Shown: positions 388 to 53,299 of the stretch, one piece after another
Numbering within the stretch: position 1 is the stretch's first letter
Layout of the letters: each line of letters starts with the position of its first letter
Source of the DNA: Hypomesus transpacificus
Lineage: Eukaryota; Chordata; Actinopteri; Osmeriformes; Osmeridae
NCBI RefSeq assembly: GCF_021917145.1
Contig: NW_025813704.1
Coordinates: 197,300 to 261,299, forward strand
Reading direction: 5' to 3'
DNA: 64,000 nt
Position numbers and translations under genes: made by a program
The notes under the pieces: model-generated
Database searches by the model: none
What the model was told of the DNA's origin: nothing
The model's input: only the letters and a program-made list of their open reading frames with translations

Positions 388-3300
388 GGCGACTGGGGGG
401 GGCAGAGGACCCTGCAGAAGAAGTGGACGTCGTTCCTGAAGGCGCGGCTGGTGTGCTCCGTGCCCGACTACGAGCTCCACCTCAACATGCTGCGGGCGGT
501 GAGCGTGCAGCAGGGTGCGGACGCTGGGGGCAGCATCCTCTACGGAGCCTTTGGACTGGAGTGGTGAGAGTCGGACCGCCAGGTGGACAGGGAGGCTAAC
601 TGATGATGTGCTGATCTGCAGAGGGTTATTCATGTGAAGGCCAAGCTTGCGGGGGGGGGGGATTTGAAAGTCTTTGTCAGTGAAATGCTCTGCCCACTAA
701 GCTAATGTCACTGTGCCAGTCTACCCTGTAGGTAAGGGGTAGAGTTAGCTGCTGGGTTCTAAGGGTGGTTATGTTCTGGGTTCTCAGAGTGTTTGGGTTC
801 TATGTTCTGAGGGCGGTTAACTTCTGAGGGCTGTAGACTGTACGAGCATGCAAAGGCAGAGTGGGTGAGGAGACTGATGATCCATGAGGAGGAGGGTAGA
901 GGGGGCCGGTGGAGGAGAGGACAATGTCAGGGAGTGTGTGTGTGTGCGTGTGTGTGGGTGTGTTTATGCTGACTCACGCGGCATAAAAGTCCCACAGGGA
1001 ATGAGAATCAGATGTCGGGTCTAACCACGACAAGTGCCCTTCTCTGCCTGGATCTCCGTCTGTCTCTCTTTCACTCTCTCTCTCTCGTTCACTCTCTTTC
1101 TCTCTCCCTCACTCTAAGGCTACTGTCACCTTTTTCTCAATTTCACCCAAAGCCAAAATGCCCTTGTGTGTAAGTGAGTGTGTGTGTGAGTGTGTGTGTG
1201 AGTGTGTGTGTGTGTGTGTGTAAGCCCCTGGGCCCCTCAGCTCTCTTTAATCTCCTGGGTCTCTTTCATCTGCGTTCCTCTCCCCAGTGTGGTGTTCAGG
1301 CCCTCAGACGACACAAAGAACCTTAGAACGTGACTCAGATCTTTCTGGCCCAGACTGATCTTACCTGCAGGGCTTCTCTCCACCTGACCCGGGCCTCCAT
1401 CCTCATTCCTCTGTGGTGAATCACAACACGATACCCCCGGGGTCATGGCTGCTAAGCCAGCGCTAAGCCAGGGCTGCACAGGGCCAGAGAGAGTCAGGGT
1501 CTCAACATGCTTGTGTTGTAACGGCGAAATGAAAACTGTGAACCTAACTCATGTCCGGTTCACACCCTGAAGGGAGTGTTCGTTGAAGGGAGTTGTAGTT
1601 TGAGATCTTTGGTACTCTGAAACCCTAACCCTGGTAACAAAGAGAACTTCCACCCCTCCTCCCTTCCCTCACCCCTACACCCCCATTCCCTCACATTTCC
1701 TTCTCACCCCCTTACCCTTACTCTCCCCCTTCCCTCCCCTTCTCTCCCACTTCCCTCCTCCTCCCCCCCTCTCCCCCCACACCCCAGCGTTGTGAATCAT
1801 GGACCAAACTCTACTTAACTTATTTACCTTCTCCTTGTCAAATGGAGACGTGGATTAGAAATGTTTGAAATTGGACCAGCGTGGCAGATAAACAATCTCC
1901 AGGTGTTTATACTCTGTCCAATGATTAACCCTGTGCCTTCTCCTGTGTCCTGGGTCTTTGTTCCCTTCAGGAAAAATATCAAAGCATCTGCAGTGTGCCA
2001 GTATTCCTTTTCCGACATCCAGAAAGCGTTCGACGGACCATACATGGAGGTCCAGGATTCAAAATGGCGGGAATACACAGGGAAGGTTCCAGAACCAAGA
2101 CCAGGCTCTGTAAGTCTCTACAGCTGATCTGTCTAACTTCCCTCCCATCCTCTGCCTCCCTTGGAACATGTTAGCTTTCAGTTCACTGATCTCATTCCCA
2201 CCCATCACTCTCTCTCTTCCCACTCCCCCTCTCTCTCTTTCCCTCCTCTCTCTTTCTCTCCCCTCCCCTCTCTCTTTGCTCTCCCTCTCCCCTCCCCTCC
2301 CCTCCTCCCCTCTCCTCTCCTCCTCCCCCCCCCCCTCCTCCCCTCCCCCCTCTCCCCCTCTCCCCCCAGTGTATAACAGACCTCCACAGATCTCAGAGTA
2401 TCAACTCCTCCAGAGACCTCCCAGACGACGTGCTGACCTTCGCCCGTAGGCACCCCCTCATGTCCACTCAGGTCCAGCCAATCAGAGGCCGCCCGCTCAT
2501 GTTCAAGAGGAACGTCAACTACGTGAAGATGGCGGTGCACCGGGTGGCCGCTCTAGACGGCCACGTCTACCCCGTCCTGTTCCTGGGCACCGGTGAGTCC
2601 ACACCACCTCAAGCACTTCCTGGATGGCTGCTGAGTGTAGCAGGAAGGTTAAGTGTGTTGTGTGTGTTCCTGCAGATGAGGGCTGGCTGCACAAAGCTGT
2701 GGATGTGGAGGGGGACATGCACATCGTGGAGGAGCTGCAGCTGTTCACTCCTGCTCAGCCCATAGACAGCATAGTGGTGTCTACAGCACAGGTAGACTAC
2801 ACCCTCACCCTGTCCCTCACCCTCACCATAACCCTCACCCTGACCCTGTCCCTCACCCTGTCCCTCACCCTGTCCCTCACCCTCACCCTGTCCCTCAACC
2901 CCTCACCCTGTCCCTCACCCTGTCCCTCACCCTGTCCCTCACCCTCACCCTCACCCTCCTCACCCTGTCCCTCACCCTGTCCCTCACCCCTCACCCTGTC
3001 CCTCACCCTCACCCTGTCCCTCCACCCTGACCCCCACCCTCACCCTCACCCTGTCCCTCACCCCTCACCCTGTCCCTCACCCTCACCCTGTCCCTCACCC
3101 CTCACCCTGTCCCTCACCCTGACCCCCCACCCTCACCCTGTCCCTCACCCTCACCCTGACCCCCCACCCTCACCCTGTCCCTCACCCTGTCCCTCACCCT
3201 GTCCCTCACCCTGTCCCTCACCCTCACCTTGTCCCTCACCCTTACCCTGTCCCTCACCCTGACCCTGACCCTCACCCTCATGTTGTTGTTTGTTTCCCAA

Positions 3301-5432
3301 CAGAAAAGTGTCTATGTGGGCTCCCACTCTGGCGTGGTCCAGGTACCCATGGCAACTTGTCGGCGCTACACTTCCTGTTTCGACTGCGTGTTTGCGCGGG
3401 ACCCTTACTGTGGCTGGGACAGGGCCCGCTGTGTGGAGATCACCTCACCAGCAGAGAGGTGAGAGGACACAAGCAAGCTGACTCACACACACACACACAC
3501 ACTGACACACACACACACACACACTGACACACGACACACACACCCTGACACACTGACACACACCGGACCTCCCCGCCCCCCCCCCCCCTCCTCCCTTTTT
3601 CTCCATCTCTCTCTTTTCTGTCTCTCTTCTCCCTCTCTCCCTGCCCCTCCCATCTCTCTGCTGTTTTCCCAGAAGTATAGAGGCTTTCATATTCCTCCAG
3701 TCTCTGTCCTCCTCTTAACCTCCTACCGCACTAACTGTGTTGGTTAAAATGTCATCAAAATTCACTGATCGATATCTTGACTTGACTTTCAAGATATAAA
3801 AATGATACATCTTGTCCTCATGTTGGGATGTATATATGTTATATTGTCGATATGGTATCGTAACATATGGTATGGTAGCGTATGGTCCGGTAGTGTGTGT
3901 AAACAGCTGAGGCTTGTGTCTCCGCTCAGCAGGTCCAGTCTGGTCCAGGACGTACAGCTCGGCACCAGAGGCTGTGCCAACAACACTGGAGAGGGTGTGT
4001 ACTGAACCAACACACACACACTCTTATACACACACTCTATCTCCCTCTCTTACACACGCACACACACACATTATTCTATTTCAAGATTGAACCTGGATGA
4101 CAGTGTTCCCTCGCGTGCCTCAAACGGGACGTTTAAAGAGCAGAAGGGATTTCATGTGTGTGTGCTTCTCTGGCCTCGCTAGACCTCCACACACCTTGTA
4201 ATCAGCTCTCCCCTATGATACAGGTCATGTGATCCCCCTGTCAGGGTCAGGTGATCACCCTGGTGTCATAGCCTGGTTGTTAAACTGTCATATCATGTGT
4301 GTGACTCCCTCCCCCCCCTCACCTCCTCCCTCCCCCCCCCCCCTCCCTCCCCCCTCCCTCCCTCCCTCCCTCCCTCCCTCCCTCCCTCCCTCCCTCCCTC
4401 CCTCCCTCCCTCCCTCCCTCCCTCCCTCCCTCCCTCCCTCCCTCCCTCCTCTCCAGTGCTCCAGCGTAGACGCTCTGTGATGTCAGGAGACGATGTCCTC
4501 CTGCAGTGTGAGCTGCGTTCTAACCTGGCGTCTCCTGGCTGGACGCTAAACGGCCGCTCGCTGAACACCCACAGCCCCGCCTCCGGCTACCGCCTGGGCA
4601 CCGACGGCCTGCTCATCGTGGGGGCGCGCCCTCAGCAGGGCGGGACTTACCGCTGCTTCGCCGTGGAGAACAACATCTGGGTCCCTGTGCGTCTGTACCG
4701 CGTCAGCGTCCACACAGAGATGCCCTCTCCGGGGGGTCCCACCGCCACGCCCTCCCCCGCACCACCCCCCACCCCTTCACCCAGCCCAGCCGCCACCCCC
4801 CAGCACCCCCACCGAGCGCACGCTGCCCTCCCCGCCCGCCCCCCCTGCCCCCGGGCCCTGACTTCCAGACCTTCAGGAACATGGAGGCTGTGTATATCTC
4901 CCTGGTGGCGGTGCTGGGGGGGCTGTGTCTGGTGCTGACTGTGGTGCTGCTCTATGTCAGCTTCTGCTCCAGGGGGCCCTACGGGGCCAGGAAGTTCCCC
5001 CAGCAGGAGTTCTCCATCCTGGGGATGTCTGACAGGAAGAGGAGCTTCCCCTTGGAGCTCCAGACCATCTCCAGCCACTGCAACGGCCGTCAGGACAGGA
5101 GAGGTCGGAGGTCGCTGTCGGTGTCCAACGACGACCTCGCTGGGGGGTTCCTCCAGATCGTCCCTGGGGAGGGACAGATGTCCCCCGGCACGCCCCCGGC
5201 CCCCCCAGCACCGCCCCTGCCCCTCCCCCCTCCGCTGCCCTGCTCCGACTACGCCAACGGGCTGTCGGCCACGCTGCCCAGCGTGCTGAGGAAGATGAAC
5301 GGGAACAGCTACATGCTGCTGAGGCCAGCGGAGGCCGATAGCACCTCGCCACTCTACCACTCCTTCACCGAGGAGCTCAACCAGATCCTGGAGAAGAGGA
5401 AACACACGCAGCCCGACGAGAGCTCTGTGTAG
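388..5432 (+). CDS. sema4g: Semaphorin class 4 (sema4g-like), 3' part of gene
   Basis: This is a transmembrane semaphorin that acts at the cell surface as a guidance ligand, classically through plexins. Exons read from splice sites: 388-563, 1971-2109, 2370-2592, 2676-2791, 3304-3458, 3930-3994 and 4457-5432. The phases agree across every junction. The first four encode the C-terminal half of the sema domain ([21 protein letters not shown], then the [11 protein letters not shown] block). Exon 3304 carries the PSI cysteines ([16 protein letters not shown]). The last exon holds an Ig domain (VLLQCEL...YRCFAV), a proline-rich stalk, a TM helix (about 4887-4965) and a cytoplasmic tail ending ESSV, a PDZ-ligand type terminus. 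The N-terminal sema exons lie left of the window. The family is certain. The name 4G rests mainly on the neighbouring mrpl43, which adjoins SEMA4G in human. The frame of the Ig part and that of the TM part disagree by one base within about 4700-4870 (see findings). Confidence 0.82.
2798..3283. repeat. 12-bp minisatellite (CCCTCACCCTGT-like)
   Basis: Tandem CCCTCACCCTGT units with variants fill a sema4g intron. The array starts right after the splice donor at 2791 and ends about 20 bp before the acceptor at 3303. It creates open but meaningless frames on both strands. Confidence 0.95.
4352..4450. repeat. (CCCT)n microsatellite
   Basis: About 25 copies of a CCCT tetranucleotide form the pyrimidine tract directly before the splice acceptor of the last sema4g exon (CTCCAG at 4451-4456). 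Confidence 0.95.
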
Positions 5433-11906: not shown

Positions 11907-12459
11907 TTTGCTACTGTAGCCTGTGTAGATAGGTATCCCTTGTATATTTGTGTATTTTAAATACTTCAGCCAGACATTTAAACAATTCTCAAACCATGCT
12001 AGCAAGTAAATACACCGAAAACTAGGTAGAGGACGATTTGACGGATATACGTATTATCAAGTTGTCCGTCAATTACAAATTCCGGATGGAAACACAAGTT
12101 GGTCGAAGACGGTAGCACAGACGAAGATAGTTACACGGTCTCCGATAGTAAGGCTACATTTTGACATTATTTATTTTAATTAATGTTTATAATAAATATT
12201 AAATATTTATTAGGCATATTTATATAAATACAATGTCAAAGATTTGTGTTTTGCATGGTCAAAAATCTGTCTTTTAGTACGATGTGTTTCACACGAGCCT
12301 ATTTTTTAAACGCACCGAGGCGATTTGAAAACATGGCTTAGAAATTCTTTCATAAACGTTTCCTTTCCCATATTTCTGTTTTATTTGTATTGGAGTAGCT
12401 TGTTTGGTCTTGACATTTTTATCCCTCAATTTACTGGTGGAGGTTAGCGTAACAAAAAC
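11907..12459. promoter_or_regulatory. Putative bidirectional promoter, mrpl43 / HARBI1-like
   Basis: A 553-bp interval separates the two divergent start codons. A TTCCGG (12080-12085) is an ETS/GABP-type core, a class common in promoters of mitochondrial protein genes. No TATA box is placed convincingly for either gene, and the region 12160-12240 is very AT-rich. The promoter call is inferred from gene orientation. Confidence 0.45.
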
Positions 12460-13913
12460 ATGGCGTTTGCCCCAGCGGTTTGGTTAGCTGTTCAGGAAGA
12501 ACTCTGTGGGGACAACAGTTCGGAAACAAAGCCTGAAAACTACTTTGATGATTTTGAAGATGAGGAACTGTTTCAAATGTTTCACCTTACTCGACCATGC
12601 ATCAATTTCATTACAGACTATGTAAGTCACCAGATGACAAAAATACATGATACCAAACAGACCAGTCATTCTCCTTGCGGAATGGTGATGACCGCGTTGG
12701 ACTACTATGCTAACGGAATTGTATCAACGACAGTCCAAAATAAAGTCGGATTAAATCCCTTAGAAACGCCAGAAGTCATTTATATCGTTTCAAAGGTGTT
12801 GTCCGGTATGGTCAGTGATTTTGTCACTTTCCCGAGGACTCGTGACTCGAGAGCCAACGTCGCTAATGACATAAAGAACTTCTGCGGGATGCCGAACGTG
12901 TTGGGTGTGGTGGCTTGTCTGCATGCGAGGGTGAGACCGGCTCATCTCCAGCCCGAGCTCTTTCGGAATACTCTGGGTTTCTTATCAGTCATGATCCAAA
13001 TCATCTGCGACTGTGAAGGAAATATTTTGAGTGTGGAAGAATGTTGTGTAGGCAGCACTCCTCAGCAAAACATCTGGAACACCTCTGTTATAGGATCTCA
13101 ATTTAAGCGAGGGGTACATGGAACCAACTGGATTATAGGTAAACACCCGATCTAGTTTACTTCCACATGAGTTAATAAAGGCATGTCTTGAAAAGGACAA
13201 CGCTTTCCCAAAGCGCTGTGTGCTGTAGTTCTAATCCGTAGCCGTTTCTATACAACGACCACCGATAACACCACCTGTAGCAGCGACTTGGTTGTCATGT
13301 CAGTCATGTGTAGTAGGCCTTATTGCAGGTTTATTAAAAGGCTGTTGGGGGGGGGGTTAATATAATTGGACGGGGATGGGAACAGAAACAGTACAAGTCC
13401 TTTGTTTTTTGACTGAGATGTGTTCAGTTTGAGTATTAGGCCGAATATTCGTGTTGTCCGTGAACAAAATATCTGTTGTTAACCACAGCTGTCTGTGCTT
13501 TTCCTCACGGAGCGGGTTCCGGTTACACGCTCGGCTGTCATCTCCTGACGCCCGTGTTTCCCGCCAACAGCGAGCCGGAAAAGCGCTTTAACTCCGCGCA
13601 CGCCAAGGTTCTCCGAATGATGCAGGAAACTATCACGTCGCTGAAGAAGCGCTTCCTGTGTCTCAAGTTCTTCGGTTACGCGCAGCAGGACGCCCTGGAT
13701 AAGAAGGGTGATGTCATGAACGCCTGCTGCGTCCTGCACAACATTGCCAAGAAATTTTCCGTCCCGTCTGTGGTGGAACCGGGGGAGAACTTGGAGACCA
13801 TGCACCCGGGAGCGCAGTTCCGGGACTTGTCCGCAGAGCTGCCTCTCGAGATGGCAAAGGCCAGAGACGACATCATTGCTGGATATTTCTCTGTCTCTGG
13901 AGCGACAGTATGA
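12460..13913 (+). CDS. HARBI1-like (Harbinger transposase-derived) protein, catalytic acids lost
   Basis: Two exons, 12460-13138 and 13489-13913. The donor is ATAG|GTAAAC, the acceptor AACCACAG, and the phase is 1. They encode 367 residues, close to HARBI1 (349). It aligns along its length with HARBI1: an N-terminal helical region, GMPNVLGVVACLHARVRP, the ICDCEGNILSVEECCVGS strand, GSGYTLGCHLLTP, RFNSAHAKV, SLKKRFLCLK and ACCVLHNIAKKF. At each position where the family has a catalytic acid, this protein differs: GVVDC becomes GVVAC, the Asp after PGS is Gln, GDS becomes GSG, and the Glu of the VIEKTF block aligns with Gln. The frame and splice sites are intact. No flanking terminal inverted repeats were recognised, so this looks like a domesticated gene rather than a mobile copy. 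AATAAA at 14170-14175 may end the transcript. Confidence 0.85.
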
Positions 13914-33010: not shown

Positions 33011-33180
33011 ACATTACATTTACATTTAGTCATTTAGCAGACGCTTTTATCCAGAGCGACTTACAGTAAGTACAGGGACATTCCCCCGAGGCAAGTAGGG
33101 TGAAGTGCCTTGCCCAAGGACACAACGTCATTTGGCACGGCCGGGAATTGAACTGGCGACCTAACAGGTCATGTCAGTTG
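33011..33180 (-). mobile_element. SINE-like element, minus orientation
   Basis: It begins acatttacatttagtcattt agcagacgctttt, the reverse of the fish SINE/LINE tail. It continues through gccttgcccaaggacacaac and gggaattgaactggcgacc, a reversed B-box-like segment. Confidence 0.75.
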
Positions 33181-35607: not shown

Positions 35608-38600
35608 ATGAGAATGGCCAGCTTGTTCCGGGATCGCCGTGCTGTGAAGCATGCAGAACCAGAACCACAAGAACCAGAACCACAAGAACTGGAACCACCA
35701 GAACCAGCCCACCACCCCCCTCCAGAACACCACCACCCCGGCCACGACTACGACCACATGAAGGATAAGTTCATGAACGAACTGGGCAGACTGCCTTGTA
35801 AGTAGCTCTGGGTGTTCAGGCCCATACTGGGCAAGGTCTGAGATAGGATAAAGGACAGCAGATGATGTCACTACGACACTTTATATTGATCTCTTTTGCA
35901 ACGGCGGAGAAGGGGGCATAGTGTATTTTAGTGTATAGTCATTTTTGTGTATACATTAAAGTGTCTTTAATAGGTGTACATTGTGTTATTGTTGTACTGC
36001 TAGGAACTGCAACCAAGACTTTCACCCATTTTTTCACTTGTGTACATGTTTGAGTGACAACTAAAGGATTTGATTGGATTGGGGTTTTGCTGTGTACAAA
36101 TCTCCCTCAAAGCGTTATGGGAGTTTCAAAATCCGGAAATAGACATTTGGAAAGAAAAAGGGGGGAGGTGAGCTATAGCTCAGCGGTGGAACATTGTACT
36201 GCAAATTATGAGGTTGCAGGTTCAAATTTCCCCTTCTCTGGATGTTGCTCTGGGTCAGATACCTGTCTGTGTGGTCTCTTCCCCCCCCCCCCCCCCCCCA
36301 GTACCCATGTGGGCCGTGGGAGCCATCGTGGTGCTGGTGCTGGCCCTGGTCAGCTGCTTCATCTTCTGCTTCTTCAAGAAATGCTTTGGCAAGAAGAAGA
36401 AACCGAAAAAGACCCGGGAGAGGAAGGGCGGCCGGCGGAGGAGAGGAGACAAGGAGGGAGAAGGAGAGGGGGGAGAGAAGGTAGGACAAGGAGGGAGAAG
36501 GAGAGGGGGGAGAGAAGGTAGGACAAGGAGGGAGAAGGAGAGGGGGGAGAGAAGGTAGGACAAGGAGGGAGAAGGAGAGGGGGGAGAGGAGGTAGGACAA
36601 GGAAGGAGAAGGAGAGGGGGGAGAGGAGGTAGGACAAGGAATTCAGGACATTGAAAACGTTAATGGATAAAATAAATGTTTTGATAGTAGCAGACAGAAA
36701 TGTAAATATTCTGTGTGGAACGCAGGAGGGTGAGGAGAAGAAGGAAGGAGAAGGAGAGGAGAAGGAGCAGGAGAAGCTGGGGAAACTGGAGTTCTCCCTG
36801 GACTACAACTTCACAGACGCCCAGGTCAGTTCCTTTTACAGGACGGTCCTCTCCTCTTTCTCACCGTTCTCTGGTCGACAGATGTTACAGAGGAAATCAA
36901 ACGATCACTAGGTGGTGTGATACCGTTCACTACAGTACCATCTAGCCTCACTCTTCTACCTATACCTCCCTCACTCACCCTTAATTTCTCTTCTTCCCCC
37001 ACCCCCATCTTCTTTCCTGTCTCCCTCTCCCTCCCTCCCTCCCTCCCTCCCTCCCTCCCTCCCTCCCTCCCTCCCTCCCTCCCTCCCTCCCTCCCTCCCA
37101 TCTTTCTCCGTCCCTCCACAGCTCATAGTAGGTATCCTCCAGGCCCAGGACCTGGCTGCCATGGACATGGGAGGAACCTCGGACCCTTACGTCAAAGTCT
37201 ACCTGCTGCCAGACAAGAAGAAGAAGTACGAGACTAAAGTCCAGCGCAAGAACCTGTGTCCAGTTTTCAACGAGACCTTCATCTTCAAGGTGTCTGAGTC
37301 GGCTTTCCTCCAACCATCGTGGCTTTGCTTGCTCCGTGTGTCCTGTCTTGTGTTCTGTCCCCCCCGTCTTTCTGTCTCAGGGGGCGGAGTCTGGGTTCAG
37401 GGGGAGGAGTCTGGGTTCAGGGGGCGGAGTCTGGGTTCAGGGGGCGGAGTCTGGGTTCAGGGGGCGGAGTACACCCCATGTTCATCCCACCCTTCCTAGT
37501 ATGTCTCTCCTTCTCTGATATCCGTCCGTCCAGACAAGGTATCCCTCTCAGAAAAACAAAATAAAAAAAAAAGTATATACTCTGCATATAGAGTTTATGT
37601 TGTACACAAGTATCTGTATGTGTCCTTGAGGGTTTCGGTTGGGGCAGTGGCATTGCCTGTAAAAAGGGCTAAACAAATACATTTTGATTTGATATATGTT
37701 GTATTGCAGTTTTGTGCAACAGACAAACCAGTATCTTACGTCAAGAATTGCACCCAAAAACTGATAGTTATGTACATAAAAAGCCACTTCTTGGTACTGG
37801 CGATATGAGCTCCAGGAAAACTACTTTCCTGTTCCAGTCTGCCAGCTGGATCCAGGCCTCATGTCCTCTCTTCTCTGTCCAGATCCCCTACGCAGAGCTG
37901 GGGGGAAAGACCCTGGTGATGCAGGTCTTCGACTTTGACCGTTTCTCCAAGCACGACGTGATCGGGGAGATCAAGATCCCCATGAGCAGCGTGGACCTGG
38001 GCCAGCCCATGCAGCAGTGGAGAGACCTGGAAGGAGGAGAGAAAGAGGAGGTCGGGAAAACGTTCCGTTGTTTTGTTTCGTTGCTAACTTTGTTAGCACA
38101 CTTCTTATTTCTCTGCGCGTCTTTGTTCTTCTTCCCTCAGCAAGAGGTGCTGGGGGATATCTGCATCTCCCTGCGTTATGTTCCTACTGCTGGGAAGCTC
38201 ACTGTCAACATCATGGAGGCTAAGAACCTGAAGAAGATGGATGTTGGCGGCCTGTCAGGTGGGCTGATCTGTTTCCTCAAACTCTGGGTGTGTGGTTGTG
38301 TGTGTGCATGTGTGGTTGTGTGTGTGTGGTTGTGTGTGTGCATGTGTGGTTGTGTGTGTGTGGTTGTGTGTGTGCATGTGTGGTTGTGTGTGGTTTTGTC
38401 TGTGTGGTTGTGTGTGTGTATGGGAGTAGCTTTGCTATTTACTTCCGGCTTGTTCTACCCCCCCGTCTCCAGATCCCTTCGTGAAGGTGGTGCTGCAGCA
38501 GAACGGAAAACGGATCAAGAAGAAAAAGACGACAGTGAAGAAGAACACGCTAAACCCGTACTTCAACGAGAGCTTCAGCTTCGAGATCCCCTTCGAGCAG

Positions 38601-39222
38601 ATACAGGTAGAGCCTTTTCACTTAACTGTGACGACAGGTCACCGTGACGACAGGTCACCGTGACGACAGGTCACCGTGACGACAGGTCACCGTGACGACA
38701 GGTCACCGTGAAGACAGGTCACCGTGACGACAGGTCACCGTGACGACAGGTCACTTAGTGGTGCGCCGGGACAAACAACACTATTCAAAATACTGTTAGA
38801 AAAACACGCCATATTCACTATTTGTACGTCCCTGAGAAGTGAAAGTTAACGCAGTGATGTAGTTATTTAATCCATAGCAATGCCCGCAGTCCAAGGGGTA
38901 TTTGAACCTGCAAACTCGTGATTTGCAGTGAAATGCTCTAAACCACAGAACCTCTTCCCTTACCTCCATTGAAGTTAAGCGATCTACTCTCTCCTCTTTC
39001 TTCGTGTGTCAGAAAGTGCAGGTGGTCATCACAGTGTTCGACTACGACAAACTGGGGAGCAACGATGCTATCGGCAAGACCTTCATGGGGTACGGAGCCA
39101 CAGGGGTCGGCCTCCGCCATTGGTCAGACATGTTGGCCAATCCCAGACGCCCCATCGCCCAGTGGCACACGCTCCAGCTGGAGGAGGAAGTGGACGCAGC
39201 GCTGAAGGTTCCGCCTCGCTGA
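35608..39222 (+). CDS. syt5: Synaptotagmin (syt5-like, syt1/2/5 group)
   Basis: A calcium sensor of secretory and synaptic vesicles. Exons: 35608-35797, 36302-36480, 36726-36824, 37122-37289, 37883-38050, 38141-38258, 38473-38606 and 39013-39222, in phase throughout, giving 421 residues. Order: short luminal N-terminus rich in Pro, Glu and His with [15 protein letters not shown] helix ([15 protein letters not shown]), Cys/Lys-rich juxtamembrane and a charged linker. C2A follows ([10 protein letters not shown]; calcium Asp in [10 protein letters not shown] and [10 protein letters not shown]), then C2B ([29 protein letters not shown] and DYDKLGSND) and the C-terminal [20 protein letters not shown]. 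All the usual calcium-binding aspartates are present in both C2 domains. The sequence is close to syt1 and syt2 as well; syt5 is chosen because human SYT5 adjoins PTPRH. ATG 35614 is an alternative start. Exon 36302-36480 ends inside a 37-bp repeat that copies its own donor. Confidence 0.9.
36173..36262 (+). mobile_element. tRNA-derived SINE head in syt5 intron 1
   Basis: An A-box-like gagctatagctcagcggtgg and a B-box-like ggttgcaggttcaaat are spaced as in a tRNA, followed by ttccccttctctgg. Similar sequence in reverse lies at 38875-38965, so this is a repeat family rather than a tRNA gene. Confidence 0.6.
36448..36632 (+). repeat. 37-bp tandem repeat spanning a syt5 splice donor
   Basis: The end of exon 36302-36480 and its donor (GAGAAG|GTAGGA) are repeated. 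Identical or near-identical GT positions follow at 36518, 36555, 36592 and 36629. The unit is gtaggacaaggagggagaag followed by gagaggggggagagaag (37 bp, not a multiple of three). Confidence 0.95.
37020..37099. repeat. (CCCT)n microsatellite
   Basis: About 20 CCCT units stand just before the splice acceptor of the C2A exon (acceptor AG at 37120-37121). Confidence 0.95.
37380..37470. repeat. 20-bp tandem repeat, 4.5 copies
   Basis: The unit ggggcggagtctgggttcag lies in the syt5 intron after the C2A exon, starting about 90 bp after the donor. Confidence 0.95.
38285..38425. repeat. (GT)n-rich minisatellite
   Basis: gtgtgcatgtgtggttgtgt units occupy a syt5 intron; non-coding. Confidence 0.9.
38626..38755. 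repeat. 16-bp tandem repeat with AGGTCA half-sites, 8 copies
   Basis: The unit gtgacgacaggtcacc lies in the syt5 intron immediately after the C2B exon donor (38606). Each unit carries AGGTCA. Consecutive units form AGGTCAccgTGACGA, an inverted repeat with a 3-base spacer. Confidence 0.95.
38875..38965 (-). mobile_element. tRNA-derived SINE head, minus orientation
   Basis: Read on the minus strand it has gaggttctgtggtttagagc and gcaggttcaaataccccttg, matching the layout of the element at 36173-36262. It sits in the last syt5 intron. Confidence 0.55.
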
Positions 39223-41766: not shown

Positions 41767-42756
41767 ATGAGAGCCATGCAGCGCAGAGTCTCATCTGTTG
41801 CCCTGCTCCTTGGTAAGAGTCTTTCAAGTCATCAGTCTAGTCAACACACTTCCTACAACCTTCCAGCCTCTCCAGCTCAGAACAAACTCAGTCATGAGAT
41901 GATTATGTGTTTGCAGAGTTCTGGGTGCTCTCTGCCTGTGCACTCCATCAGTATCATCAGGTCACAATTCTGCTGAATTGGTCTGATGCCCAGAGCTACT
42001 GTAGAGAGCACTTTGTTGACCTGGCGACCTTAGACAGCATGGAAGACATGCAGGGTCTGAATGAGCAGATGAAAGACCAGATACTTCCTGGATCATGGCT
42101 TCGGCTAGGATTGAAAAGAGACAGTAATGGCAGCAGCTGGAAGTGGTCGGACCAATCAACATCCTCCTTCAGCTACTGGGGGAGTGGCCAACCATATGAT
42201 CGCTCTGGCTGGGACTGTGTCAACATAGTGTGGTCTATCAGTGATTCAGGGCTGTTGTACGCACAGACGTGTTCTGCAAAAATGTATTTTCTTTGCCACA
42301 ACGGTGAGTGAGACTTATAATATATATAATATTGCATAATCTACCAATAATGTCCGACTGTGTCATAATGGCTAATTTACCCCAGGGAACATTGATATGA
42401 AACCTACTAAGGTGAAGCTGGTGGGGAGAGTGGAACTGGTTCCTAATTCACCTTCGGACTTAGAGGATCCTGCCATGCGGACTCCATCTTGCAGCAAGTG
42501 AGTGTCTCTCTGTGTGAGGGAGGGCAGTCCTCTGACTGTACATGATGTGTAGTCAAAGTCTCAGTCATTACAGACAACCAGCAGTTACACCCTAGAACCA
42601 TGTAAGGATTGTTATTGCAGTAAGAATACCCTTTACAGATGACAGTGACAGGTTGGTCACTGTCAAAACACATACTGATCCAAGACTAGTTCAGTGTTCT
42701 ACAATACACCCCATAATGTGGTGTAACCATGACAGTGTGACTGTGCCCCCAGATGA
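41767..42756 (+). CDS. C-type-lectin-like secreted protein, single CTLD
   Basis: Four exons: 41767-41812, 41917-42303, 42386-42497 and 42753-42756, phases consistent, 182 residues. The start follows a splice acceptor (TGTGTGTGTAG) directly, so an upstream non-coding exon exists. An N-terminal hydrophobic stretch (SVALLL then FWVLSACA) suggests a signal peptide. One CTLD follows: LLNWSDAQSYCREHFVDLAT, WLRLGLKRDSNGSSWKWSD, GQPYDRSGWDCVNI and CSAKMYFLC. The four core cysteines are present. The usual QPD/EPN sugar motif reads QPY and the WND motif is absent, so calcium-dependent sugar binding is doubtful. The third exon adds a short tail, and the last contributes only A plus a TGA stop. It resembles the CTLDs of the fish CLEC20A / mannose-receptor-like group, but exact orthology is unknown. 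AATAAA at 43167-43172 may end it. Confidence 0.85.
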
Positions 42757-44475: not shown

Positions 44476-47400
44476 CTACAGCTCCTTCTTGGCCTGGCCC
44501 AGCGAAGCCTCCTGCTGGCTCCGCCCCTCCCTGTCCTCCTGCTGGCTCCTCCCCTCCCTGTCCTCCTGCTGGCTCCGCCCCTCCCTGTCCTCATGCTGGC
44601 TCCGCCCCTCCCTGTCCTCATGCTGGCTCCTCCCCTCCCTGTCCTCATGCTGGCTCCTCCCCTCCCTGTCCCCCTGCTGGCTCCTCCCCCCCCTGGCCTC
44701 CTGCTGGCTCCTCCCCTCCCTGGCCTCCTGCTGGCTCCTCCCCTCCCTGGCTTTCTGCTGGCTCCTCCCAGTTCTAGAAGGTTCTCTTTGGTCTGGGGAC
44801 AGCAGCTGCAGCAGGTCCATCAGGGCTCGTTTGATCTGAGCTCCAAACTTATGAGAGTCCTGATGGAAAGGAACACACGTACACTGAACAGCCGGGAACT
44901 TAACACTGTCTAGTTAACTTCATAAATGACTTCTTCAAGAGTATTCTTAGGTATGCACAGTCTGAGTGTGTGTGTGTGTGTGTGTGGGGGGGTCTACTCA
45001 CAGTTTGAGGGCAGGAGTGCTTGCAGGAGATGTGGAAGTTGATCATGCCCTCTCCCACAATGATGTAAGACACGCCGTAGCCATCATCTGCCACCTGAAG
45101 AGAGGAGCACGTCGTCATGACTACACAGGTGGGGCTTCGTGGTTGTCATGACTACACAGACAGGGGTCAGAGGGCAGGCTGGTACTGACCGGGCCAAAGC
45201 CGCCTCCACAGGAGATGTACTCTGGATGGTTGACCATGTCGAACAGCTCCACCTGCTGGACGGGAGTCTGGCTGGTGGACAGACGCCACGGCTCTGATAG
45301 CACCTGAAGCACACAGACACAGGAGAGAGAGAGAGGTGAGGACAGAGGAGAGGTTAGGACAGAGGAGAGGTTAGGAGAGGACAGAGGAGAGGTGAGGACA
45401 GAGGAGAGGTGAGGACAGAGGAGAGGTGAGGACAGAGGAGGGGTTAGGACAGAGGAAAGGTGAGGACAGAGGAGAGGTGAGGACAGAGGAGGGGTTAGGA
45501 CAGAGGAGAGGTGAGGACAGGTGAGGACAGAGGAGAGGTGAGGACAGAGGAGGGGTTAGGACAGAGGAGAGGTGAGGACAGAGGAGAGGTGAGGACAGAG
45601 GAGGGGTTAGGATGGGGCCAAACCTGGTTAAGGAAGGGAGAGTCCACCCCCAGGTACTTTGACACCACATAGAGGCAGAAGAGGTGGCGGTCGATGCCAG
45701 CGCCCGTCATGGCCAGGCGGTACAGGTTCTGGTGCTTCTCTGCTGCCGCACGGAGCAGCCTCCTGCACACCTCCGCCCCCTGGTGGATGAGGACGAGAAG
45801 GAGAGAGTAAGAAGAGGAGAGAAAGAGGAAGGAGATAGGAGAGTAAAGGAAGAGGGCAAGAAGTTCTGATGTGACGTCCAGTTTTCAAGCAGGGTGGATT
45901 ATGTCTCATATAAAGGGAGGATTTTATGTCTAAATGAAAGTGACGCTTAACACGAACCTATGAAGAGTAGGGTTGTTTGTTTAACTGTACCTCTCCTCCC
46001 TCCAGCGCCTTGACGAAGGCACAGCCCTCGCTGGAGCAGGAGCGCACAGTCTCTGTGCGGCCCTCCCTGAAGAGACGGGTCATGGAGGCCTCGTAGGTCA
46101 GACAGAACATCCCCCGATCCTGGGAGGGAGGGAAGGAAGAGGTGGGGGAGGGGGAAGTATTTAGTATATATGTATATATATATATATATATATATGGTGT
46201 GTGTGTGTGTGAGAGAGGGTATTCACCCTGTAGTAGGCCAGCTGCAGAGCCAGTTGGATGAAGGCGTCAGGGCTGATCCTGCACTTCTTCATCCTGCCCT
46301 TCCCAAACTCCTGGTAGGAGAACACGTGGAAGTCCACGTCATCAGCCAGAGCCTGCGCAACCTCCAGAGACCTGCTCACCTGCTCCTGGCACTGGGACAC
46401 ACACACACTCAGTACAGCAGCCAAGAAGAGGTGGAGACAGGCAGACAGGCTGACGGCTAGACAGGCAGACGGCTAGACAGGCAGACAGCTAGACAGGCAG
46501 ACAGGCAGACAGGCAGACAGGCAGACAGCTAGACAGGCAGACAGCTAGACAGGCAGCTAGACAGGCAGCTAGACAGGCAGCTAGACCGGCAGCTAGACAG
46601 GCAGACAGCTAGACAGGCAGACAGCTAGACAGGCAGCTGACCTGTGTGGAGATGTCCCAGGTGAGTCTCTGGGGAGGGGGTATAGACTGGTTCACTTCTC
46701 CTTTGCAGTGGCCCTCCTCGTTGTAGCCCAGCTGGAAACTGTCTGTGGCCAGCGCATACTGGACACACACACACACAGTCAGGTACACTGACAGCCATGA
46801 TTATGCCTCAAAATGACCAATAGCGGGCCTGTATGGTGGTGATCTGACATGTTTGGACCAATCCCAGCAGGGGGTCTTACCTCCCACAGGTGAGCCACCA
46901 CGGGGGCGTCGGCCCAGGAGTGCTCCGCGTTCAGCCCGTTCTTCCCGTTCTTGTAGATCACCACGGAGAACGACTTGTCAAACCACCTGGCAGGAACCAC
47001 GGCAACCACAGATCAGTAACCACAGCAACAACAATCTCATTAGCATCAACAACCTCATCAACATTAACAATATTATCAGTATCAACAACTACAAATGTAT
47101 CTTTCTGAAAGCCTTCTGATGGTATTGACTGTTGGGTAGAGAAGGCATCTGCTAACTGTGGTTTGTGGCGTTCTAAACACGAGTGTTGCCAACAGGGACG
47201 TTGTAGAGTGTCCTCTGGTGGACAAACTATGCAACGCCAACACTCATAACATGGTTGAAGGGTGTTTTGTCCGCTTTTTTAAATATGAAGTTATCAGGCA
47301 TTATAAATGCAGATACTGAAAATGCCTGATATCGGTCAGGCTCTAAAACCCACACTTACAGATACATTTAGTAATTTTTTATTAACGCTAGTGGCTAGCT

Positions 47401-50400
47401 AGCCTGGGGCGACAGATATAAGCAGTTCCACAAGTTCTGTCAGCGGTTCGTATCCCCCTTCAGACTGAGACACCAGCTCACCTGTCGTAACACTTCCCAT
47501 GGAGGAGAGACTTGGCGTAGCGGTCCAGACTGGCGCCCGGGTCTTCTCCCATCATGCCTTGCTCCTCGTCGTCCAGCGTGACGAAGAACGCCGCCTTCTC
47601 GATGCAGTCCAGTGAGCGCTTGTTCACCCCTGAGCTGAAGAACTGCTTCCTGGCTTTGGCCCAGGGGATTCTGGGAAGGAGAGCACCACAGGAGCGGTTG
47701 AGGTTAGAGTTAGGGCTGGGTTAGGGTTAGGGCTGAGTTAGGATTAGGTACTGAGGATGGAAGAGGGTTAGGGACGCCCTTGTCTCCAGGCGTGTCCCCA
47801 GGGGCGTGTCCCCAGAGGCGTGTCCCCAGAGGCGTGTCCCCAGGGGCGTGTCCCCAGAGGCGTGTCCCCAGAGGCGTGTCCCCAGAGGCGTGTCCCCAGG
47901 GGCGTGTCCCCGGGGGCGTGTCCAGGCTCACCTGTCCCCGGCAGTCAGAGCTCCCAGCTTGTCCTCGCCGGGCGAGGGGGCCGAGGGGTCGTCAAGGATA
48001 CGCTGCACCTGTGACTCCACCTCCCGCGGTGAGAGCAGCCGCCCGGCGCTGTACATCCACAAGCGGAAGTAGCGCCCCCGGTGGTACACCACCACATAGT
48101 CACTGTCCTGCCAGTGCTGCACCGTGTCTGGGGGAAGGGGGAGGAGGGGTGAGAGATGGAGAGAGAGAGACAGGGATGGAGGGAGGGATGGAGAGTGTGG
48201 ATTTAGATGACAGTCATCAGGGTAGGGGGCAGGATCAGGTCACCATGACAACACACAGGGAAAGGTGGAAAACAACAGTCAGACTGAGCCAGGGGCGGGG
48301 CCTGGGGGCAGGGCTTGGGGAGTCAGACTACCTGTGACGATTCCTGGGAGCCGACAAGAGGAGAACATCCGCTCAAACTGATAGGAGCAGCAGGGCACAG
48401 CAGACCTCAACAACCACTAAGACCAAGACCAGGAACCAGCGCAGACCAAGGCCAGAGGGTGAGGAGGAGGAGGAAGAGGAAGAGAGGAGGAACAACAAAG
48501 GGAAAGGAGGAGGGATGGAGAGAGAGTGAGAGAGCAACATGAAGACAGGAAACAGGGACCGGGGGAGGTTAAAGGGAAGGGATGAGGAAGGAAAAGGTGG
48601 AGCAAAGTGAAGAAGAACAGAGTTAGATCCAACAGAGTTAGTAGCAGCATTCTGTACAGCCACAGACACGCTGGACAGACACGCTGGACAGACACGCTGG
48701 ACAGACACGCTGGACAGACAAGCTGGACAGACACGCTGGACGACAAGCTGGACAGACACGCTGGACAGACACGCTGGACAGACACGCTGGACAGACACGC
48801 TGGACAGACAAGCTGGACAGACACGCTGGACAGACACGCTGGACAGACACGCTGGACAGACACGCTGGACGACACGCTGGACAGACACGCTGGACAGACA
48901 CGCTGGACAGACACGCTGGACAGACAAGCTGGACAGACACGCTGGACAGACACGCTGGACAGACAAGCTGGACAGACACGCTGGACAGACACGCTGGACA
49001 GACACGCTGGACAGACACGCTGGACAGACAAGCTGGACAGACACGCTGGACGACAAGCTGGACAGACACGCTGGACAGACACGCTGGACAGACACGCTGG
49101 ACAGACAAGCTGGACAGACACGCTGGACAGACACGCTGGACAGACACGCTGGACAGACACGCTGGACAGACACGCTGGACAGACACGCTGGACGACAAGC
49201 TGGACAGACACGCTGGACAGACACGCTGGACAGACACGCTGGACAGACACGCTGGACAGACACGCTGGACAGACAAGCTGGACAGACACGCTGGACAGAC
49301 ACGCTGGACAGACACGCTGGACAGACACGCTGGACAGACAAGCTGGACAGACACGCTGGACAGACACGCTGGACAGACACGCTGGACAGACACGCTGGAC
49401 AGACACGCTGGACAGACACGCTGGATGAAGAGATGGACGACATGAGGAGACGACATGAGGAGACAACAGAGCTGTTCTCACGGCCGACATATCAGGACGA
49501 CAAATGTGATTGACAAAACAGCTGTGACAGGACAGGAGATCCCATCCAGCCCAGCCCAGCCCAGCCCAGAGAGCATCCCCCTCCCTCCTCCTACTAGCTG
49601 TGTGTGTGTGCGCGTGATTACCAGTCTCCTCTCCAGGAGTGCGTGTGGTGTTGAACATCCTCTCACACTGAGCAGCACAGAGAGGAATGAACGTGCCTGG
49701 AATACGACTCTGGAGGACAGAGGAGGAGGGAGGAGGTAGAGAGAGGGAGGAGGAGGTCAGAGGGAGGAGGTAGAGAGAGGGTGGAGGAGGTGAGAGGGAG
49801 GAGGAGGTAGAGAGAGGGAGGAGGAGGTCAGAGGGAGGAGGTAGAGAGAGGGTGGAGGAGGTGAGAGGGAGGAGGAGGTAGAGAGAGGGAGGAGGAGAAA
49901 GGGAGGAGGTAGAGAGAGGGAAGAGGAGGTAGAGAGAGGGAGGAGGTAGAGAGAGGGAGGAGGAGAAAGGGAGGAGGTAGAGAGAGGGAAGAGGAGGTAG
50001 AGAGAGGGAGGAGGTAGAGAGAGGGAAGAAAGAGGAGGGAGCGAGGATGAGAGGAGGGAGGATGAGAGGAGGGAGCGAGGATGAGAAGAGGGAGGGAGGA
50101 TGAGAGGAGGGAGGGAGGAAGGGAGATGACATGAGATGAGAGCATGGACAGGTGACGGGAAATAACCAGAAAACAACCCAGAGGGGACAGAACAGTGATG
50201 GGATGTTCACCTCACACACTTACAATAACACACACACACACACACACAACACGTAACCTTAGAACACCCGGTGACACACACACAGAATATCATATCAATT
50301 GTGGCAGAGATGAGGTTCCTTTGTGTTTCTTTCTTTGACTAAACCACCAGAACAATGTTCAAATTGCACCTCTAATCTCTCTCCTGCTGTTCTGTCTATC

Positions 50401-52334: not shown

Positions 52335-53299
52335 TAGGGGTGTATGTTCGTGAGTGTGTTTGTATCCTTCTGAAGAAATGGATGAGAGAATCAGTAGTGT
52401 GTGTGTGTGTGTAGGTGTGTGTGTGTGTCCACTGACCAGCCAGACTTTGGTGGTGATGGACATGTTCCCGTGCTGCTCAAACATCCAGCGGTGGTAGGAG
52501 AGCAGCTGCTTGAGGCAGAGCCTCATGGTGAAGATGAGAGCCAGCCACAGCAGGGTGCTGAACACCACTGCAGCCAGCACCACCTGACTCTGACTGCTCA
52601 GAGACTGGCTGCTGGGGGGAGGGAGGGGAGAGACAAGAGTCAAACTGGTTCTACAGAACTGTCTAGACTGTTACGACACACACTCAAGGAAACCCAACTT
52701 CTGCTAGTTTCTACAGTGTGTGTATATATGAGGTGTGTGTGTGTGTGTGTATATGAGGTGTGTGTGTGTGCGTACCTGGCAGGCAGGTGCTCCTGTATCT
52801 TGGCGATGAGGCCCATAGAGGGGTCAGAGCGTGTGTACATGGTGGCCAGGATGGCGATGACCACAAACAGCCAGGAGGAAGGGCTGGCGGGGTACACGCC
52901 CGTGATCACACTGTTCTGTCAGGGGGACAAGACAGGGGGTCAGCTCTATCATCACCACGGTCACCACGGTCACCAAGGAACCTGGAGTGTGTGGGTGTGG
53001 TGAAGTGCAGCGTTGCTAGGGAGCTACTATCATCTGTCCTATTAGCTGCAGCTGACAGAGGAGGCTAGCACCGGAGGAACTAGAACAGGGAGGTTAGTGT
53101 GAGGTCAGTGTGTGAGGTAGGAGTGTGTGGGGGGTAGGAGTGTGTGGTAAGTGTCCACCTTGATGCGTATGAGCCTCTTCTTCCAGGAGCGCAGGCCTGA
53201 CAGGTAGATCTGGGTGAAGGCCTGGTGGGACAGCTGCAGGTCGATGCCCTCGGGGGTCACCGTGAACTGGAACGCCACCGCCTGGTGAGCCTCTGCCAT
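44476..53299 (-). CDS. cpt1: Carnitine O-palmitoyltransferase 1 (CPT1A-like)
   Basis: Outer-mitochondrial-membrane enzyme that converts long-chain acyl-CoA to acylcarnitine, the gate to fatty-acid oxidation. It has eighteen coding exons in transcript order: 53159-53299, 52776-52915, 52437-52611, 52183-52284, 51908-52045, 51255-51332, 50455-50562, 49622-49709, 47932-48127, 47482-47670, 46881-46986, 46642-46758, 46227-46391, 45991-46119, 45624-45779, 45190-45303, 45002-45094 and 44476-44859. All phases agree; 872 residues, about 100 more than human CPT1A. The N-terminus [16 protein letters not shown] is the conserved CPT1 regulatory start. Two TM segments follow ([14 protein letters not shown] and [18 protein letters not shown]). 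Catalytic histidine: [10 protein letters not shown]. Other marks: [40 protein letters not shown] and [16 protein letters not shown]. The extra length is a repeat-built C-terminal tail. A second version of exon 49622-49709 lies at 48332-48416. Which CPT1 paralogue it is (1a or 1c) is unsettled. Confidence 0.95.
44505..44780 (-). repeat. 27-bp coding tandem repeat in the cpt1 last exon
   Basis: About ten copies of a 27-bp unit encode nine residues of the form GRSQQEDRE (variants GRSQHEDRE and GRSQQEARE). They follow the normal CPT1 end ([10 protein letters not shown]) and precede SLGQAKKEL and the stop at 44476-44478. Confidence 0.95.
45330..45612. repeat. 17-bp minisatellite in a cpt1 intron
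   Basis: gaggacagaggagaggt units, about 16 copies with variants, end about 10 bp before the exon at 45624. Confidence 0.95.
46435..46640. repeat. 12/16-bp minisatellite in a cpt1 intron
   Basis: acaggcagacagctag and acaggcagctag units run right up to the donor of exon 46642-46758. Confidence 0.95.
47775..47925. repeat. 14-bp minisatellite next to a cpt1 splice donor
   Basis: ggcgtgtccccaga and ggcgtgtccccagg units, about ten copies, end within 10 bp of the donor of exon 47932-48127. Confidence 0.95.
48332..48416 (-). other. cpt1: Candidate mutually exclusive exon of cpt1
   Basis: The 85-bp segment is bounded by TCTTAG| and |GTAGTC on the minus strand and open in one frame. It encodes [20 protein letters not shown] followed by IVT. 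This aligns residue for residue with the product of exon 49622-49709 ([20 protein letters not shown] then EET) and shares its entry phase (0) and exit phase (1). Including both exons would shift the frame, so they can only be used one at a time. No stop codon interrupts it. Confidence 0.75.
48661..49425. repeat. 13-bp minisatellite, about 58 copies
   Basis: The unit gctggacagacac, with gctggacagacaa and shortened gctggacgacac variants, lies between the two alternative cpt1 exons. It makes long open frames (up to 600 codons) that are not genes. Confidence 0.97.
49715..50040. repeat. Purine-rich minisatellite in a cpt1 intron
   Basis: ggaggaggtagagagaggg units of varying length begin next to the acceptor of exon 49622-49709. 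Confidence 0.95.
50815..51275 (-). repeat. 37-bp tandem repeat spanning a cpt1 splice donor
   Basis: Each unit repeats the exon 51255-51332 end and donor (TACGGCATG|GTACGTTCC) followed by tgtgttccccccgtgctcc. About seven copies follow the true donor, and a further, more diverged copy at about 50815-50850 lies beyond a LINE-tail insertion. Confidence 0.95.
50851..50998 (-). mobile_element. 5'-truncated LINE 3' end inside the 37-bp array
   Basis: Read on the minus strand it matches the 3' end of the LINE fragment at 55.8-56.7 kb: gggctatctcgttgttgatc, cagtgacctatgcac, ttggaagtcgctttgg and gcgtctgctaaatg. It therefore belongs to the same family and interrupts the minisatellite. Confidence 0.8.
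52295..52332. repeat. (CA)n microsatellite
   Basis: A short (CA)n tract about 10 bp upstream (in transcript sense) of the cpt1 exon 52183-52284. Confidence 0.9.

Follow-up and report, generated by a model that had tools for sequence, protein, structure and literature searches.

CPT1 is the gatekeeper of fat burning: it sets the rate at which fat enters the mitochondria, and its variants differ in how far malonyl-CoA restrains them. The 64,000-nucleotide stretch of Hypomesus transpacificus DNA analysed here (the window) holds a cpt1 gene in which two neighbouring exons appear to encode alternative versions of one segment of this enzyme. The locus thus raises the question of whether these exons, A and B, form a genuine pair from which one member is used at a time, how old such a pair would be, and whether its second member is still maintained. 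Our analysis makes it probable that A and B are tandem-duplicated, singly used versions of a catalytic-domain segment of 28-29 residues, and that the pair is older than the split of cpt1a, cpt1b and cpt1c.

The exon pair and its reading frame

The cpt1 gene of the window is complete and lies on the minus strand, from the ATG at 53299 to the stop codon at 44476. Each transcript would take up 18 coding exons, which leaves one to spare. Its relevant elements, with the evidence for each in brackets, are:

53299-44476, minus strand: coding part of the cpt1c-like gene (open exon chain with phases in both isoforms; Pfam CPT_N and Carn_acyltransf)
50562-50455, minus strand: exon 7, constant, precedes the pair, exit phase 0 (exon chain)
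49709-49622, minus strand: exon A, 88 nt, phase 0 to 1, 29 residues plus the first base of an Asp codon (exon chain; PF00755)
49621-48417, minus strand: intron separating A from B, 1205 nt, with a minisatellite inside (exon borders; repeat listing)
48416-48332, minus strand: exon B, 85 nt, phase 0 to 1, 28 residues plus the first base of an Asp codon (exon chain; PF00755; intron scan and shuffles)
48127-47932, minus strand: constant exon after the pair, entry phase 1, completes the Asp codon (exon chain)

An earlier note on this DNA had described two homologous, phase-matched exons, and its coordinates, AG/GT borders, phases from 0 to 1 and shared Asp codon were all verified. Both exons are preceded by AG and followed by GT, and either of them completes the same Asp codon with the next exon. 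Isoform A comprises 872 amino acids and isoform B 871, each open to a single terminal stop. The loss of frame on double use or double skipping is likewise borne out, since the first stop falls at codon 338, within exon B, when A and B are joined, and at codon 355, within the next exon, when neither is included. The claim that only single use is possible holds for a functional protein but not for splicing as such, which could physically join both exons with 1205 nt between them.

At the protein level, the two isoforms were scored with the tail past residue 768 (A) or 767 (B) excluded. CPT_N reached 94.5 bits in both, and Carn_acyltransf (PF00755) 607.1 bits in isoform A and 604.5 in isoform B, so that each carries the combination of CPT_N and Carn_acyltransf that marks a CPT1. 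Taken alone, the segments encoded by exons A and B matched PF00755 at the same positions, with 25.9 and 22.5 bits, respectively, against a cut-off of 22.3. When exon B and its neighbours were aligned to solved structures, the best alignment was to carnitine acetyltransferase, with SSCRVPG facing its SSCRLPG (E 0.011). The second-ranked structure is a non-relative, phosphatidylinositol transfer protein, matched through the constant part, and carnitine octanoyltransferase (FSTCKVPGI) is among the remaining matches.

Tandem repeats were noted at two places within the gene. A 13-bp minisatellite of 59.1 copies (48662-49425) occupies the greater part of the intron that separates A from B, and differences in its copy number might shift the spacing of the two exons. 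A 27-bp minisatellite of 9.7 copies (44508-44769) lies inside the last coding exon, where its unit of nine codons yields a repeated, charged, GRSQxEDRE-like C-terminal tail.

Counterparts in the same genome and the age of the pair

The gene was compared with its relatives through a protein search of the 437 Mb assembly, in which the window corresponds to C36:197300-261299, all comparisons being made within this one genome. The search returned at least 64 matching stretches. All but a CPT2-like stretch on C26 fall into cpt1 genes, at least four in number, namely that of the window on C36 and paralogues on C17, C62 and C14, the exon chains of these three paralogues comprising 17/18 exons each. 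Outside the segment, the window gene and C17 share 79% identity and every other pair 64-67%, as expected for one close pair and three old families.

The identities of these genes were approached through their neighbours. PF14740 (DUF4471), which we take to represent DNAAF3, was found on C36 only, about 185 kb from the window gene on the same contig, and a choline kinase gene, one of several in the genome, lies 6.5 kb before the C14 gene. In the text available from a review of vertebrate Cpt1 genes, Dnaaf3 stands beside Cpt1c in zebrafish and elephant shark, Chkb is found near Cpt1b, and the conserved neighbours of cpt1c (also called cpt1a2) are given as Dnaaf3, Kcnc3 and Ap2a1 (PMC4589379). 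Because the neighbours match this synteny, the window gene through one of the three, DUF4471, and C14 through choline kinase, we read the window gene as cpt1c-like and C14 as cpt1b. C62 was taken as cpt1a by elimination and on the basis of its N-terminus: against human CPT1A it reaches 81.3 bits, compared with 64.6 for C14 and 64.2 for the window gene. Of the neighbours probed for C62, glycosyl hydrolase 31, presumably the SITS-binding neighbour, was absent from this contig among 28 matches, and ribosomal L21 matched on C19 only; an NCBIfam search with part of C62 gave no match.

Two points had been overlooked in the earlier note: a paralogue has such a pair as well, and exon B belongs to the 85-nt type, the sole version present in cpt1b. 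The counterparts in the cpt1a-like gene are:

C62, 193189-193276: A-type exon, 88 nt, 29 residues, AG/GT borders
C62, 193917-194001: B-type exon, 85 nt, 28 residues, AG/GT borders

Here too the A-type exon comes first and the B-type second, in the same intron and with the same phases as in the window, and the frame is also broken by using both or neither. The C62 pair is preceded by exon 7 at 192431-192538 and followed by an exon at 195917. At this place C17 has a single exon, the 88-nt A-type, and C14 a single exon, an 85-nt B-type with CSYQ. Introns 7 and 8 of C17 and C14 are free of N, and a relic of the missing type within them was not detected in any of five tests, in which 24 to 78 of 100 shuffles scored equal or better; on these grounds we discarded the idea that C17 conceals remains of B, or C14 remains of A. 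Pattern scans of genome contigs and of viral contigs gave 78 and 66 matches, respectively, none of which was confirmed as a relative.

Two residues, as well as length, intron and order, follow the exon type and not the gene. In the A-type segments the Cys is preceded by Leu, with Ala two positions after it (3/3); in the B-type segments it is preceded by Met or Cys, with Tyr or Ser two positions after it (3/3). Within the window gene, A and B share 11 of 28 aligned residues and 40 of 84 nucleotides, with dS undefined, so that exon B amounts to more than exon A with GIVT in place of GEET, the replacement described in the earlier note. The 11 common residues are precisely those that B retains among the 12 family-invariant positions, and the two exons therefore share nothing private to their gene. 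Exon A of the window and that of C17 are identical at 76 of 87 nucleotides (dS 0.51), a far smaller divergence, and hence A and B would have parted long before the C36 and C17 genes did, unless B has evolved very fast.

The cpt1a and cpt1c pairs (C62 and C36) resemble each other in exon lengths, intron and order, and on this basis we lean towards their common origin. The competing reading is that two independent exon duplications took place, in which lengths and order came to coincide by chance or by convergence on limits set by the enzyme. The site may indeed be prone to duplication, the same segment being reportedly duplicated in insects, and trees of so short a segment do not reject separate events. 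The separation of A from B received a support of 50/71 in the DNA tree of the 84-nt segments and was missing from the protein tree, which warns of long branches; a duplication restricted to cpt1a, or one restricted to cpt1c, was not rejected by the AU test (p 0.31-0.32 for DNA, 0.40-0.45 for protein), and parsimony over all 105 trees, with the length change counted once, ended in a tie at 117 steps. Independent events would, however, require that the same codon was lost in each B, in the same intron and in the same order, and they sit poorly with the lack of common residues in window A and B beyond the invariant ones. On average, moreover, identity between genes within a type exceeds that between A and B within genes, the bootstrap difference being zero or less in 398 of 10000 replicates for nucleotides and 182 of 10000 for amino acids. 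For window B alone the corresponding figures are 495 and 15 of 10000, and for C62 B alone 1452 and 2642 of 10000, C14 B not being favoured over C62's own A. On this evidence we consider two separate duplications unlikely. The notion of a retrocopied or inserted cpt1b exon was not favoured either, as B is found in two genes, in each of them after A in the same intron, and has its own splice borders.

Under the reading that we prefer, the exon duplication would have come first, and the families cpt1a, cpt1b and cpt1c would have separated later. Both versions would have persisted in cpt1a and in the window cpt1c, B would have been lost in C17 and A in cpt1b. The choice between two enzyme forms would then probably be an old vertebrate feature, given the matching pair in another cpt1 gene of this genome. 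The contrast between A and B is the one seen between human CPT1A, which has the longer type and reads CSAQ, and human CPT1B, which has the shorter type and reads CSYQ. In vertebrate CPT1A and CPT1B the versions are fixed in separate genes, whereas here they are joined in one. A more far-reaching idea, which we put forward only tentatively and hold to be rather doubtful, is that a single CPT1 of the vertebrate ancestor (perhaps of the bilaterian one, in which case the insect pair would be the same) had both versions, and that CPT1A later fixed A and CPT1B fixed B, the switch surviving in fish cpt1a and cpt1c; whole-genome duplications would in that case have handed the choice of splice form out to separate genes. 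Should the pair predate the cpt1a/b/c split, it would offer a clean case of splice variants becoming separate genes, and it would single out a short segment in which the differences between CPT1A and CPT1B may originate.

Maintenance or decay of exon B

The main rival to a pair in use is decay, because exon B evolves fast and has lost two conserved residues. Exon B would then be a relic, formerly an alternative exon and now unused, with the transcript constitutively of type A, even if the cpt1a-like pair may remain in use. Window exon B forms the longest end branch of the DNA tree, at 1.24 changes per site. It has Ser in place of an Asn shared by all five other segments, and Val before Thr where those five have Glu or Asp. 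Its donor is weak, and the C17 paralogue has lost B altogether. Nonetheless, exon B retains its frame, its AG and GT and 11 of the 12 residues that are invariant in the other five segments, a state that is improbable after long neutral drift. In simulations starting from either of the other B-type exons and requiring that the 11 invariant residues, the frame and AG/GT be kept, the chance of reaching the observed state was 1.3-1.6% after 15 hits and 0.2-0.4% after 20; the 36 of 84 nucleotides by which window B differs from each other B-type are spread over two branches. Pairwise rates were dN 0.49 and dS 1.57 against C62 B (dN/dS 0.31), and dN 0.53 and dS 1.13 against C14 (dN/dS 0.47).

Splice sites were ranked, weakest first, with a leave-one-out matrix built from the four cpt1 genes (70 donors and 67 acceptors). 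The donor of exon B is 16th of 70, that of exon A is as weak (17th of 70), and the acceptor of exon B is in the middle of the range (23rd of 67), that of exon A being 63rd of 67. The weakness of the donor is thus not peculiar to B. The window gene has 18 donors, and T at +5 occurs in those of A and B only. Overall, we regard a decayed exon as quite improbable. Equal and modest donors of A and B would suit a regulated choice between them. For the C62 pair, the A-type exon has the strongest donor of 70 and the 5th weakest acceptor of 67, and the B-type exon shows the reverse tendency (donor 21st of 70, acceptor 46th of 67).

The intron scan covered 65 introns (26,596 nt) of the four cpt1 genes, without the last intron of the three paralogues, whose models hold 17/18 exons, and took as candidates all stop-free, phase-matched AG..GT stretches of similar length. 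Among 551 candidates, the CPT1 segment was matched at two places only, window exon B and one place in the C62 paralogue, with scores against three references of 44 to 74 and 67 to 95, respectively, the next best being 3. In 1000 dinucleotide shuffles of intron 8 of the window gene, the maximum was 26 and none (0/1000) reached the observed 44. Consequently, that exon B is a chance open stretch of intron with the mere looks of an exon, a view to which the abundance of simple repeats around it might lend some colour, is ruled out as next to impossible by these shuffles, by the Pfam match of the segment alone (22.5 against 22.3) and by the counterpart in the paralogue.

Proposed exon choice and possible functional consequences

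Mutually exclusive exons are recognised by WebScipio through similar length, same frame, conserved splice sites and homology, rules that other kinds of exons rarely satisfy (6 of 1705 genes on the fly X chromosome), according to the text available from that work (PMC3228551, Pillmann et al. 2011). The window pair shows similar lengths (88 vs 85 nt), the same frame and borders (both phase 0 to 1, AG/GT) and homology, with a score of 44 against a shuffle maximum of 26 and the same PF00755 positions. The defining rule of this class is exactly one exon per transcript; for the window pair, transcripts with both exons or with neither would run into an early stop. The designation of the pair as mutually exclusive in the earlier note can be kept in part: homology and interchangeability of A and B appear well supported, and the same arrangement in the cpt1a-like paralogue strengthens them.

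As to how one exon would be selected, we propose that A or B is chosen by ordinary regulated splicing and that transcripts with both exons or with neither would be removed by nonsense-mediated decay. Steric exclusion is not favoured, A and B being 1205 nt apart, nor is U2/U12 exclusion, as both introns are GT-AG. No regulatory motif common to both pairs was found beside the exons. CTCTCT occurs 22 times upstream of A, against 2.0 expected, and tracks local repeats; TGCATG occurs 3 times downstream of the C62 B-type exon, against 0.4 expected, and is absent beside the window exons.

The closest parallel comes from insects, where CPT1 (withered in Drosophila) likewise has two alternative exons of one gene giving rise to two enzyme forms. 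Price et al. are said to have reported in 2010 that the alternative exons of insect CPT1 cover a stretch of 21 residues that binds substrate and malonyl-CoA, the same segment being duplicated there. Insects, however, have one CPT1 gene, whereas H. transpacificus has at least four, two of them with both exons. In Drosophila, as described in the available text of the source, the two CPT1 forms produced by alternative splicing differ in kinetics, as well as between flight muscle and fat body (PMC7767417). By analogy, the two proteins encoded by the window gene might differ in their affinity for acyl-CoA or malonyl-CoA.

Mutations that cause CPT1A deficiency include changes at C304, T314 and R316 of human CPT1A, as listed in the accessible part of a published account (PMC10076611). 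The segment has residues with the same spacing, Cys304, Ser314 and Arg316 in isoform B and Cys305, Thr315 and Arg317 in isoform A, so that swapping A for B would preserve the critical Cys and Arg and alter their surroundings. In view of the analogy with Drosophila and of these three deficiency positions in the segment, a change in the response to malonyl-CoA or to substrate is plausible, as the earlier note had suggested, and A and B can be expected to differ in affinity or inhibition as well as in the tissue or state in which they are used. If one gene can indeed swap a 28-residue catalytic piece, fat burning could be adjusted to tissue or diet from one locus.

In vertebrates, a literature search by title and by the start of abstracts, which took in few subscription papers and no annotation databases, returned no report of the pair, and an earlier notice is possible; in the available text of the review of vertebrate Cpt1 genes mentioned above (PMC4589379), 'splic' and 'exon' occur 0 times. 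Many CPT I cDNA isoforms have been named in fish, such as goby CPT I alpha1a-1a, -1b and -1c in the available parts of two studies (PMC6070261, PMC5713373), and some of them might be splice forms of this kind.

Several other features were observed in the window. Pieces of a DDE_Tnp_4 transposase lie on the plus strand at 12448-13152, below the Pfam cut-off, and at 13464-13910, above it, and a UnaL2 LINE 3' element on the minus strand (33024-33077) scores 58.9 bits, the gathering score being 55. The plus-strand neighbours at 3160-3459, 37688-39219 and 41898-42308 carry a PSI domain, C2 domains (one above and one below cut-off) and a C-type lectin domain, respectively; in our reading, the first is semaphorin-like and the second synaptotagmin-like.
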